Source: a bacterium
GTDB taxonomy: Bacteria; Eisenbacteria; RBG-16-71-46; CAIMUX01
DNA length: 64,000 nt
Reading direction: 5' to 3'
Assembly: GCA_030431975.1 (NCBI GenBank)
Contig: JAUIHP010000005.1
Coordinates: 124,001-188,000, forward strand
Positions 12,541 through 57,782 of this stretch are shown here, one piece after another. A model generated the notes under the pieces. It ran no database searches. It was not told the DNA's origin and saw nothing but the letters and a program-made list of their open reading frames with translations. Position 1 is the stretch's first letter; each line of letters opens with the position of its first letter. The translations under genes and the position numbers were made by a program.

Positions 12541-12747
12541 CCCGAGGCGAGTCCGCGAACGCGGCGAGCCGCAACAAGGCAAAACACCGTCCTCGGCACC
12601 GTGCGGCCCGAACGGGCCGCCTCCGGAGGCGAGGCCGCGAAAGCGGCGAGCCGCAACAAGGCAAAACACGAGTCCTCGGCACCGTGCGGCCCAAAGGGCC
12701 GCCTCCGAAGGCGAGGCCGCGAATGCGGCGAGCCGCATCAAAATAGG
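12541..12747 (+). repeat. Structured repeat array, locus A (three copies)
   Basis: There are three copies of a 25-nt hairpin at 12546-12570, 12628-12652 and 12710-12734. Each has outer arms GGC/GCC, inner stem CCGC/GCGG and a GAAC, GAAA or GAAT loop. Copies 2 and 3 are each preceded by a second hairpin with arms GCGGCCC/GGGCCGC (12603-12620 and 12686-12702). Linkers share AACAAGGCAAAACA and CCTCGGCACC. The array ends in ATCAAAATAGGAG, which is the ribosome-binding site of the gene at 12756. Confidence 0.85.
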
Positions 12748-12755
12748 AGCAAGAC

Positions 12756-13073
12756 ATGGGATTTGACCAAACTACCGACCGCCTGCGCCGCGGCCACCTC
12801 GGCGCAGACTTCTTTTCACTGGAAGACCGCATCGCCGGTCTCGAGGCCGAAAACCGCGACCTGCGGGAGCGGCTCGAACGGCTCGAACGGAGCCTCGAAG
12901 GTCTCGGCGACGTTCTCAACGTCCGCCCCGGCGGCCGGCTGGAGATCAACGCCACCAGCATCGAAGCCAACTGTGCGATGAGTAACTTCACGGGCGTCGT
13001 TCGTTGCCACAGCATCGTCGCCACCACGGTGGTCGGTTCTTCCTACACTCCCGGCGCCGGAAACATCTGGTAG
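12756..13073 (+). CDS. Small coiled-coil protein with a spike-tip-like C-terminus
   Basis: This 105-residue protein has two parts. Residues about 18-52 are a strongly heptad-patterned coiled coil (LEDRIAGLEAENRDLRERLE and on). Residues 55-105 are a beta-rich tail with PGGRLEINATSIEAN and the ending ASYTPGAGNVW-like (here VVGSSYTPGAGNIW). I recall a closely similar ending at the C-terminus of VgrG/gp5-type baseplate spike proteins, where it follows a beta-helix; this was not checked against a database. No other phage or injection-system gene is nearby. AGGAG lies eight bases before the ATG and belongs to the end of repeat array A. The stop overlaps the GTG of the DinB-like gene (TAGTG), so they are coupled. 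Function is unknown. Confidence 0.7.
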   Translation: MGFDQTTDRLRRGHLGADFFSLEDRIAGLEAENRDLRERLERLERSLEGLGDVLNVRPGGRLEINATSIEANCAMSNFTGVVRCHSIVATTVVGSSYTPGAGNIW

Positions 13074-15417: not shown

Positions 15418-15432
15418 CCTGGTTCTCCTATC

Positions 15433-15610
15433 TTAGTGCGGCTCGCCGACTGTTTTGATGCGGCTTGCCGCTTTCGCGGACTCGCCTTCGGAGGCGGCCC
15501 GTTGGGCCGCACGGTGCGGCTCCGGTTGTTTTGCCTTGATGCGGCTTGCCGCTTTCGCGGACTCGCCTTCGGAGGCGGCCCGTTGGGCCGCACGGTGCCG
15601 TGCCCGGTTC
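15433..15610 (-). repeat. Structured repeat array, locus B (two copies plus a truncated tail)
   Basis: There are two 25-nt hairpins at 15462-15486 and 15543-15567 in minus orientation. They have outer arms GGC/GCC, inner stem CCGC/GCGG and a GAAA loop. Each is preceded by the GCGGCCC/GGGCCGC hairpin (15494-15510 and 15575-15591). A truncated third tail (GGCGAGCCGCA on the minus strand, about 15437-15447) lies next to the ribosome-binding site of the UXS gene. The two copies are nearly identical to each other. Confidence 0.85.
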
Positions 15611-46280: not shown

Positions 46281-47354
46281 TCACCCGCGGCTCTTTGCCA
46301 GCCCCGACCGGATGTTGACGATGTCACCATCCTGTATCACGTAATCCCTACCCTCAATCCGTAGTAACCCACGCTCCTTGGCGGCTCCCATGGAACCGAC
46401 CGAATCCCAGTCCTTATAGGCCGTGACCTCCGCCCGAACGAATCCCTTCTCAAGATCCGTATGAATTGCACCCGCCGCCTGGGGGGCAGTCGAGCCCCGG
46501 CGGACACTCCATGCCCTAACTTCGTCTTCACCCACAGTGAAGAAAGATTCCAGTCCCGCCCGGGAGTAGGCAGCACGAATTGTCTGATCGACCGCCGACT
46601 CGGTGAGACCGAACTCCTTCATGAATTCTTTTTGGTCGTCTGAATCGAGCTCCTGGATCTGCGACTCGACCTCGGCGCAAAAAACGATCCGCTCCGAAAC
46701 CTCATTTGATCCTTCGAACTCGATGGAGTCCACGTGCTCGCGCGCCTGCCCAAGATGCTCTTCACCCACATTGATAGCGGGAAGAACCGCCCGCTGGGTC
46801 AGGAAGGAAAAGCCCCGAAGCTCCTTCTCCTTCTCTTCGACCTCCGCCACCGTTCGCACGGGACGGCCCTCGGAGAGCACCTGCTGCAGTTCGTTGAGAA
46901 GTTCCGGTTCTCCCTGGAAGGCCGGCTTCTGTCCGGACTTGATGATCTTCTGCAGCCGCTCGAGCCGGTTCTCTACCGTCGAGAGATCGAGAATGGCAAA
47001 CTCCTCTGCAACCTCGCGAACCTGTGCTGCGGCTTCTTCGGCCCACATCTCGGGCGGAACGGCAAACAGCTCGACGACCAGAAGAACCAGATCCGCTTTG
47101 GAAAGCATCTCACGCCGTTCCGGGGACACCGCAGGATAGACAGGACCGCCCTTCTGCTCGAGGTCTTGGAACTCGATCCGCGCGGGGGTCGTCTTCTTCG
47201 GATTGAACGCTTCGGAGAGTTTCCGGAGCCGCGCATCGGGAACCTCGATGTGGGCAATCCGGAGCCCGGACGCCTTGTCCCCCGCGCCACCTTCCATGAG
47301 ATCGAACAAGGTCGACTTCCCCGACCCCGGCCGCCCCGCCAACGCAATCCGCAT
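46281..47354 (-). CDS. ychF: YchF-related P-loop ATPase/GTPase
   Basis: This 357-residue protein is of the Obg-HflX superfamily. Walker A is GRPGSGKSTLF (residues 7-17); canonical YchF has GLPNVGKST, so the loop is altered. The region PDARLRKLSEAFNPKKTTPA matches the YchF switch area and AINVGEE is the NxxE motif that gives the family ATP preference. The C-terminus is a TGS domain (FFTVGEDEVRAWSVRRGSTAPQAAG, about residues 268-292, and RIEGRDYVIQDGDIVNI). YchF proteins bind ribosomes and nucleic acid and affect stress responses. The ATG lies eight bases after TAGGAG, which ends repeat array C. Confidence 0.85.
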   Translation of the reverse strand: MRIALAGRPGSGKSTLFDLMEGGAGDKASGLRIAHIEVPDARLRKLSEAFNPKKTTPARIEFQDLEQKGGPVYPAVSPERREMLSKADLVLLVVELFAVPPEMWAEEAAAQVREVAEEFAILDLSTVENRLERLQKIIKSGQKPAFQGEPELLNELQQVLSEGRPVRTVAEVEEKEKELRGFSFLTQRAVLPAINVGEEHLGQAREHVDSIEFEGSNEVSERIVFCAEVESQIQELDSDDQKEFMKEFGLTESAVDQTIRAAYSRAGLESFFTVGEDEVRAWSVRRGSTAPQAAGAIHTDLEKGFVRAEVTAYKDWDSVGSMGAAKERGLLRIEGRDYVIQDGDIVNIRSGLAKSRG

Positions 47355-47362
47355 CTTTGCTC

Positions 47363-47569
47363 CTATTTTGATTTCGGCTCGCCGCGTTCGCGGACTCGCC
47401 GGCGGAGGGGCTCGCAGTTGCGAGCCCTTCGGTGCCTAGGCCTCTTGATTTCCTTTTTTCGCCTCGCCGCGTTCGCGGACTCGGCGGCGGAGGGGCTCGC
47501 TTTGCGAGCCCGTCGGTGCCTAGGCCTTGTGATTGTCTTTTTTCGCCTCGCCGCGTTCGCGGACTCGGC
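47363..47569 (-). repeat. Structured repeat array, locus C (three copies)
   Basis: There are 25-nt hairpins at 47376-47400 (outer arms GGC/GCC), 47461-47485 and 47545-47569 (both GCC/GGC), all with inner CCGC/GCGG and loop GAAC, in minus orientation. The first two are preceded by locus-private hairpins GGGCTCGCA/TGCGAGCCC (47408-47427) and GGGCTCGC/GCGAGCCC (47493-47511). Linkers share AGGCCTAGGCACCG. The array runs into ATCAAAATAGGAG ahead of the ychF-like start. No gene occupies 47355-47984. Confidence 0.87.
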
Positions 47570-47585: not shown

Positions 47586-47749
47586 GGTTGTGGACGGAAG
47601 ATTGCGGACGCCAAACTTCTAAGCTGCGACGACACATCGTCCTTGGTTATCCAATCAGGGGGAGCAACCAAGACGGCGGATCGTCGCGGCAATCTCAGTC
47701 ACTCAATAACACTTAGCCCAATCCTGTCCGCAATCTTCCGTCCACAACC
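47586..47749. repeat. 24-bp perfect inverted repeats bounding 116 bp
   Basis: Positions 47586-47609 and 47726-47749 are exact reverse complements (starting GGTTGTGGACGGAAG and ending CTTCCGTCCACAACC). The 116-base interior has further small pairings (GACGA/TCGTC; TTGGTT/AACCAA) and no gene. The short terminal-repeat layout resembles a miniature inverted-repeat element, but no target duplication directly abuts the ends. Confidence 0.65.
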
Positions 47750-47862: not shown

Positions 47863-47984
47863 GACGGGCCCGCAAAGCGAGCCCGTCCTCATGCACAACT
47901 TCAGGCCTACGCACCGAAGGGCTCGCAAAACGAGCCCCCGCCGGCGAGTCCGCGAACGCGGCGAGCCGAAATCAAAACAGTCTT
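47863..47984 (+). repeat. Structured repeat, locus E, facing tRNA-Lys
   Basis: This is one 25-nt hairpin (47943-47967; GGC/GCC, CCGC/GCGG, loop GAAC) in plus orientation. It is preceded by hairpin GGGCTCG/CGAGCCC (47919-47937) and a longer imperfect stem GACGGGC/GCCCGTC (47863-47887). The tail ATCAAAACAGTC ends at the 3' end of tRNA-Lys, which is on the other strand. It mirrors locus C around the 24-bp inverted repeats. Confidence 0.8.
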
Positions 47985-57549: not shown

Positions 57550-57782
57550 ATTGATTTCGCCTCGCCGACTATTTTGATTTCGCCTCGCCGCTTGCGCGGA
57601 CTCGGCGGCGGAGCGTCGAACGCTCAGCGTTCGACGGTTGGCCGCATTCTTCTGGTCTTGCCTGATTTCGCCTCGCCGCTTGCGCGGACTCGGCGGCGGA
57701 GCGTCGAACGCTCAGTGTTCGACGGTTGGCCGCATTCTTCTGGTCTTGCCTTTTTTCGCCTCGCCGCTTGCGCGGACTTGGC
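57549..57782 (-). repeat. Structured repeat array, locus D (three copies plus truncated tail)
   Basis: There are 25-nt hairpins at 57582-57606, 57670-57694 and 57758-57782 in minus orientation, with outer arms GCC/GGC, inner CCGC/GCGG and a GCAA tetraloop. The first two are preceded by a private hairpin CGTCGAACGC/GCGTTCGACG (57614-57636; second copy 57702-57724 with one mismatch). Linkers share AGGCAAGACCAGAAGAATGC. The array fills the space between tRNA-Leu and tig, beginning eight bases after the tRNA 3' end. Confidence 0.87.

Follow-up and report, generated by a model that had tools for sequence, protein, structure and literature searches.

Tandem arrays of two alternating hairpins at gene edges in an Eisenbacteria genome: a probable lineage-specific interspersed repeat family

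Mycobacterial interspersed repetitive units (MIRUs) are tandem units of roughly 50-100 bp that occupy short intergenic gaps and often overlap the start or stop codons of the neighboring genes. MIRUs are not known for carrying a constant and a covarying hairpin in each unit. The BOX elements of Streptococcus pneumoniae are short intergenic modular repeats, in which the boxB module is absent or reiterated between constant ends (PMC3049150). They show strong predicted RNA folding, are limited in the species that carry them, and may affect co-transcribed genes (PMC3049150). The REP, BIME, and REPIN sequences are imperfect palindromes of 20-40 nt that are intergenic, repeated, and clustered, and that form subtypes in each genome (PMC3733652, PMC3116915, PMC2817692). 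In this study, we analyzed hairpin arrays in a window of 64,000 nucleotides (contig C28:124001-188000) and in the genome to which it belongs, which comprises 6.19 Mb in 59 contigs and is 97% complete; 0.84 Mb of this genome was read directly, and the remainder was searched with models. The arrays are nearest in style to BOX and MIRU-type repeats, yet they are classed as a separate new family and a member of none of these. It is likely that the family is a lineage-specific, modular, non-coding interspersed repeat in the style of BOX, MIRU, or REP sequences, inserting at gene edges and expanding in tandem.

A first-pass annotation of the window had reported twelve copies of a 25-nt hairpin (hereafter H1), and all of their coordinates were confirmed. 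The layout that it described, namely an outer 3-bp stem, an asymmetric internal loop, an inner stem, and a tetraloop, was found in 12/12 copies. The inner stem CCGC/GCGG is constant, the outer stem is GGC/GCC in seven copies and GCC/GGC in the other five, and the loops are GAAC, GAAA, GAAT, and GCAA, all as reported, while the loop class, given as mostly GNRA-like, is corrected here to GNAN. The 25-nt hairpin is only half of a repeat unit of 77-88 nt, in which H1 alternates with a second hairpin (H2). The five arrays of the window (i to v) consist of the following parts:

12546-12570, plus strand: array i, first H1 copy, without a preceding H2 (GGCGAGTCCGCGAACGCGGCGAGCC)
12603-12620, plus strand: array i, H2 with stem GCGGCCC/GGGCCGC, framed by GCACCGT and CTCCGGA
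12628-12652, plus strand: array i, second H1 copy
12686-12702, plus strand: array i, second H2 copy
12710-12746, plus strand: array i, terminal H1 and 3' tail GCATCAAAATAG, then the ATG of the ORF at 12756-13073
15543-15591, minus strand: array ii, H2 (15575-15591) and internal H1 (15543-15567)
15450-15510, minus strand: array ii, H2 (15494-15510), terminal H1 (15462-15486), and tail GCATCAAAACAG
15428-15449, minus strand: array ii, remnant TCGGCGAGCCGCACTAAGATAG, immediately 5' of the UXS ribosome-binding site
47545-47569, minus strand: array iii, first H1 copy
47461-47511, minus strand: array iii, H2 (47493-47511, GGGCTCGC/GCGAGCCC) and second H1 copy
47364-47427, minus strand: array iii, H2 (47408-47427), terminal H1 (47376-47400), and tail GAAATCAAAATAG; the YchF-like gene starts at 47354
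47919-47980, plus strand: array iv, H2 (47919-47937), single H1 (47943-47967), and tail GAAATCAAAACAG, facing the 3' end of tRNA-Lys
57758-57782, minus strand: array v, first H1 copy, 8 nt past tRNA-Leu
57670-57724, minus strand: array v, H2 (57702-57724, CGTCGAACGC/GCGTTCGACG, one change) and second H1 copy
57569-57636, minus strand: array v, H2 (57614-57636), terminal H1 (57582-57606), and tail GAAATCAAAATAG
Between this tail and the tig start codon (57549), minus strand: array v, remnant TCGGCGAGGCGAAATCAAT

The remnant TCGGCGAGCCGCACTAAGATAG looks like an H1 that was shortened, presumably by a deletion between the two GGCGAG repeats. Between arrays iii and iv (window 47586-47749) lies a 164-bp MITE-like element, whose terminal inverted repeats are 24 nt long (GGTTGTGGACGGAAGATTGCGGAC). 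The genome contains 53 matches to its ends with up to 3 mismatches, against 0 for a reversed control, which corresponds to roughly 27-30 elements, and a further copy lies beside array ix (C37:123669-123833).

The consensus of H1 is N3-RA-G-K-CCGC-GNAN-GCGG-C-RA-N3. The outer stem has 3 bp, or 4 bp in many copies, and the internal loop is a tandem purine-A, usually GA/GA and less often AA/GA or GA/AA. Above it lie a G-C pair, one bulged base, the 4-bp inner stem, and the GNAN loop, and RNA folding reproduces this shape at -13 to -15 kcal/mol. The compensatory change that the first-pass annotation had stressed is real, but it is confined to the middle pair of the outer stem. Among 28 distinct aligned copies, 7 of the 8 pairs are invariant, and the middle outer pair is G-C in 16, C-G in 7, and A-U in 5, compensated every time. 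The invariance of the inner stem is partly a matter of construction, because the aligned copies were fetched by a pattern that fixes it; exceptions under a looser model are few (GCGT for GCGG in three copies of array vi).

The stronger covariation sits in H2, which the first-pass annotation had missed. Successive H1 copies are separated by a linker starting with (A)GGCAA, the block GCACCGNN, H2, and then CTCCG followed by AA, CC, or GA. H2 is a perfect or near-perfect hairpin of 6-13 bp whose sequence differs between arrays, with about 10 kinds of stem (GCGGCCC, GGGCTCGC, CGTCGAACGC, CGGCGAC, CCGCCC, CGGCGC, AGGCGCCGTTGC/GTGGC, AAAACGGGCGCCC, CGGCGCGC, and GGCTTCGC). When base-anchored pairs were counted by hand, 94 of 97 stem positions were paired, compared with 47% in a control that combined the 5' arm of one array with the 3' arm of another. 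In addition, two adjacent units of array ix carry a compensated pair (GTTGC/GCAAC versus GTGGC/GCCAC), and the strong covariation is assigned to H2 on these two grounds. It demonstrates that a palindrome is maintained at that place, and by itself it does not distinguish RNA from single-stranded DNA as the selected form. Such tight pairing in a freely varying module suggests selection or a palindrome-generating mechanism beyond mere duplication, which counts against reading the family as a simple repeat.

The unit is reiterated 1 to 5 times per array, and each array is closed by a terminal H1 and a distinct tail. Thus, as in BOX-like modular repeats, a constant module is joined to a module of variable copy number and the whole is strongly folded, with z values of -4.1 and -3.9 for the unit. 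All 12 arrays known from the genome end in H1 and a tail that ends in AG (TCAAAAYAG in 9/12), and at internal H1 copies a GGCAA-type sequence usually replaces the tail, with exceptions in arrays vii, viii, and ix. Arrays i and ii, which are 2.7 kb apart and oppositely oriented, have their H2 in common. The same is true of arrays iii and iv, 0.4 kb apart, where the H2 stem of array iv is identical to that of array iii on the opposite strand. These shared H2 sequences in oppositely oriented neighbors suggest local inverted spread.

In the 6.19-Mb genome, a strict core pattern gave 29 exact matches, and the reversed pattern gave 0, so the H1 family is not a product of chance. A covariance model of 48 nt built from these 29 copies found 32 copies at E<1e-7 (9e-15 to 7e-8). 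A second, looser model, which also takes in a diverged subtype, found 36 copies at E<1e-4, and the next best match had E=1.5. All of these copies, the 32 close ones and the 36 that include the diverged subtype, fall in the 12 arrays, and scores elsewhere are at background. Besides the five in the window, array viii lies farther along C28, array vi on C5, vii on C18, ix and x on C37, and xi and xii on C49. The arrays are also clustered, as 5 of the 12 fall inside 45 kb, which occurred in 0 of 20,000 random placements. The diverged subtype (for example GGCAACGCCGCGAAGCGGCAAGCC and GGGGACGCCGCGAAGCGGCACCCC) adjoins arrays vii and viii. Its hairpins precede these arrays (C18:69290-69460 and C28:257890-257980), show GAA triloops together with internal loops of the AA/AA or A/A type, and alternate with other palindromes. 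A generic descriptor of a hairpin plus GGCAA gave matches no more numerous than in controls. It pointed to C49:73217-73318, where a hairpin GCGGAGCCGGCRAAGCCGGCAATCGC followed by AAAGGCAAACCCC forms two tandem 48-nt copies directly after a MITE copy; this hairpin may represent a diverged H1 relative whose inner stem differs.

The junctions with genes are of an insertion type, since the 3' tail either runs up to the start codon or ribosome-binding site of a gene or provides the stop codon of a converging one. In arrays i, iii, vii, ix, and xii the gene starts 0-12 nt past the tail, and in arrays ii and v tail and gene are separated by what remains of a shortened H1 (TCGGCGAGSCG...). In arrays vi and xi the opposite strand of the tail encodes the last codons and the stop of a converging gene (CTR TTT TGA, for a protein ending in LF), and array x is directed at the 3' end of a converging gene. 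The hairpins had been described as placed ahead of genes. This holds for 8 of the 12 arrays genome-wide, which run in sense into a start codon, while the other four run toward the 3' end of a gene or tRNA; in the window, the copy at 47943 is not ahead of a gene but is directed at the 3' end of tRNA-Lys. The 3' tail is so consistently near start codons that it possibly has a role in expression, a point that counts against a mere repeat. The eight sense arrays, most of them within 0-12 nt of the gene, would also suit a cis-acting mRNA leader, in which hairpin arrays in the 5' UTR control translation or processing, for example by CUCC-GGAG pairing at the ribosome-binding site or through a protein bound at the tandem-GA hairpin. 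Consistent with this, the end of the element falls within the ribosome-binding site in arrays i and iii, and the full leaders of these two arrays fold better than shuffles (z of -2.8 and -3.8, respectively). However, the orientation bias of eight against four is not significant (one-sided binomial P=0.19), and CUCC occurs equally in internal units and in arrays without a ribosome-binding site behind them. Furthermore, the genes that follow the window arrays are not related to one another; they comprise a 105-aa ORF that has no match in Pfam, an epimerase of the UXS type, a GTPase of the YchF type, and trigger factor (tig). Given also the four arrays that face 3' ends, a leader of this kind is unlikely.

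The same positions can be read from the other side, with the clustered hairpins serving the upstream gene or tRNA, either as transcription terminators or by protecting the mRNA 3' end. Arrays i, ii, v, viii, x, and xii directly follow a sense gene or tRNA, and each unit has two strong hairpins. Yet U-runs are absent after both H1 and H2, the genes that receive their stop codons from arrays vi and xi lie antisense to them, and the arrays are not conserved in relatives. This function was judged the least probable of the explanations weighed here.

Comparison with relatives bears most directly on a regulatory leader. The first-pass annotation had proposed a covariance-model search, and this search bore out a structured family with many copies in the genome but gave no credible copy in 146 related genomes or in 47 genomes of the phylum. 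Weak matches in G016, G026, G027, and G044 were dismissed as apparently protein-coding sequence. A two-copy pattern searched over 84,980 species, a collection that may omit the source genome and its near kin, returned 15 stretches, all unrelated by eye. The tRNA-Leu/tig gene order is conserved across the order, and the spacer upstream of tig is array-free in 7/7 relatives read. Likewise, at the glycosyltransferase/UXS locus, the spacer before UXS is short and array-free in the relatives with a readable locus. Thus the upstream regions of tig and UXS in relatives hold no homologue that would mark a conserved cis-regulatory RNA, and no equivalents of the arrays in other sequence were evident among the tandem repeats of 0.79 Mb sampled from three relatives. 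Because the arrays are absent from relatives and the spacers are array-free within conserved gene order, they most likely arrived in this lineage. For the same reasons, the role in mRNA processing or translation control that the first-pass annotation had offered is disfavored in the form of a conserved leader, and its last alternative, a REP-like element, is on the favored side.

H1 has the general properties of REP sequences listed above, being an imperfect palindrome of 20-40 nt in many intergenic copies (36 copies in 12 arrays). A REP/RAYT-type element, which a Y1 (HUH) transposase would recognize by its H1 hairpin and mobilize in the form of single-stranded DNA, would accord with the short, imperfect, GC-rich hairpin with an internal loop, the gene-edge sites, the clusters, and the diverged subtypes. 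However, the tag and the RAYT that define REPs (PMC3733652) are lacking in the H1 family. No GTAG or CGTC adjoins either edge of aligned H1, GTAG being found only within some 3' tails (viii and ix), about 8 nt off. The 97%-complete genome contains 0 PF01797 proteins, and the same search was positive in 5/14 controls. The arrays are in tandem same-strand order rather than in head-to-head BIME pairs, and the copies, about 36, contrast with the high numbers typical of REPs. A REP/RAYT origin is therefore very unlikely.

The likeness to BOX elements is closer, as both are modular, intergenic, and strongly folded, with a reiterated middle module and constant ends (PMC3049150). This is a likeness by description, and no Rfam family matches the arrays. 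BOX elements have terminal inverted repeats, whereas none were seen by inspection at the 5' and 3' ends of the arrays. They also have target-site duplications. None was established for the arrays, as the spacers of relatives are too diverged for a base-by-base empty-site alignment; nor was a clean 5' boundary, and both points count against an inserted repeat. The alternation of two hairpins, one constant and one free in sequence, is unlike BOX, and 12 arrays compare with 125 BOX elements (PMC3049150). Two classes of enzyme that might move such a repeat were searched for, and neither a Y1 transposase nor a reverse transcriptase was found in the 97%-complete assembly, which counts against a mobile repeat. 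The arrays also resemble MIRUs in their tandem intergenic units at gene edges, while lineage and sequence differ.

The interspersed repeat favored here has the unit H2, CUCCG with AA or CC, the constant H1, and the (A)GGCAA linker, with a terminal H1 and ATCAAAAYAG tail closing the array. Such a repeat would have entered intergenic gaps at gene edges, and its arrays may have grown by tandem duplication, with homogenization within arrays and local inverted spread between neighbors. The family could also be a non-autonomous mobile repeat of a new kind, in which H1 and the ATCAAAAYAG tail form a fixed recognition end, H2 is a module defined by its structure alone, with paired arms of any sequence, and a putative enzyme targets gene edges; this version is doubtful, though a little less so than the leader. 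The transcribed strand would fold into a row of hairpins. Because transcribed arrays would fold in this way (unit z of about -4, and the leaders of arrays i and iii as given above), they could plausibly affect expression, and those located in a 5' or 3' UTR probably change the stability or translation of the mRNA somewhat as a by-product. Relatives have the same genes but no arrays, so such effects would be a consequence and not a conserved purpose.

These results add a previously unmodelled interspersed repeat family from an uncultured lineage, and they indicate that a second hairpin, free in sequence but always paired, can travel with a constant one. They also advise caution, as hairpins ahead of unrelated genes that show a compensatory change need not be regulatory RNA. 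For such hairpins, array-free spacers in relatives are the informative test.

The statement that no known family has this layout agrees with Rfam, which contains no matching family. The Rfam search that had been proposed gave no match to the arrays at the gathering threshold, where only two tRNAs were found in the window, and a permissive search gave only weak chance matches. Among these was one array against the raiA-hairpin RNA (RF03059), at 17.3 bits and E=1.9, far under the gathering cut-off of 43.7, and this identity was rejected as a chance match. A resemblance to glycine and c-di-GMP riboswitches, seen by eye, had no Rfam support. A phage origin was set aside, as viral contigs gave 27 single matches, mostly without the outer stem, and so was CRISPR, the "spacers" of which turned out to be near-identical units. 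Several arrays are open in several frames, but unit lengths of 77-88 nt are not kept to multiples of three, and a protein-coding repeat was rejected. A separate hairpin-rich tandem repeat with 77-nt units (TTCGCTGCGAAGAAACTTCGACGAGGCGGGATCTC...), unrelated in sequence, is present at C37:256348-256527.
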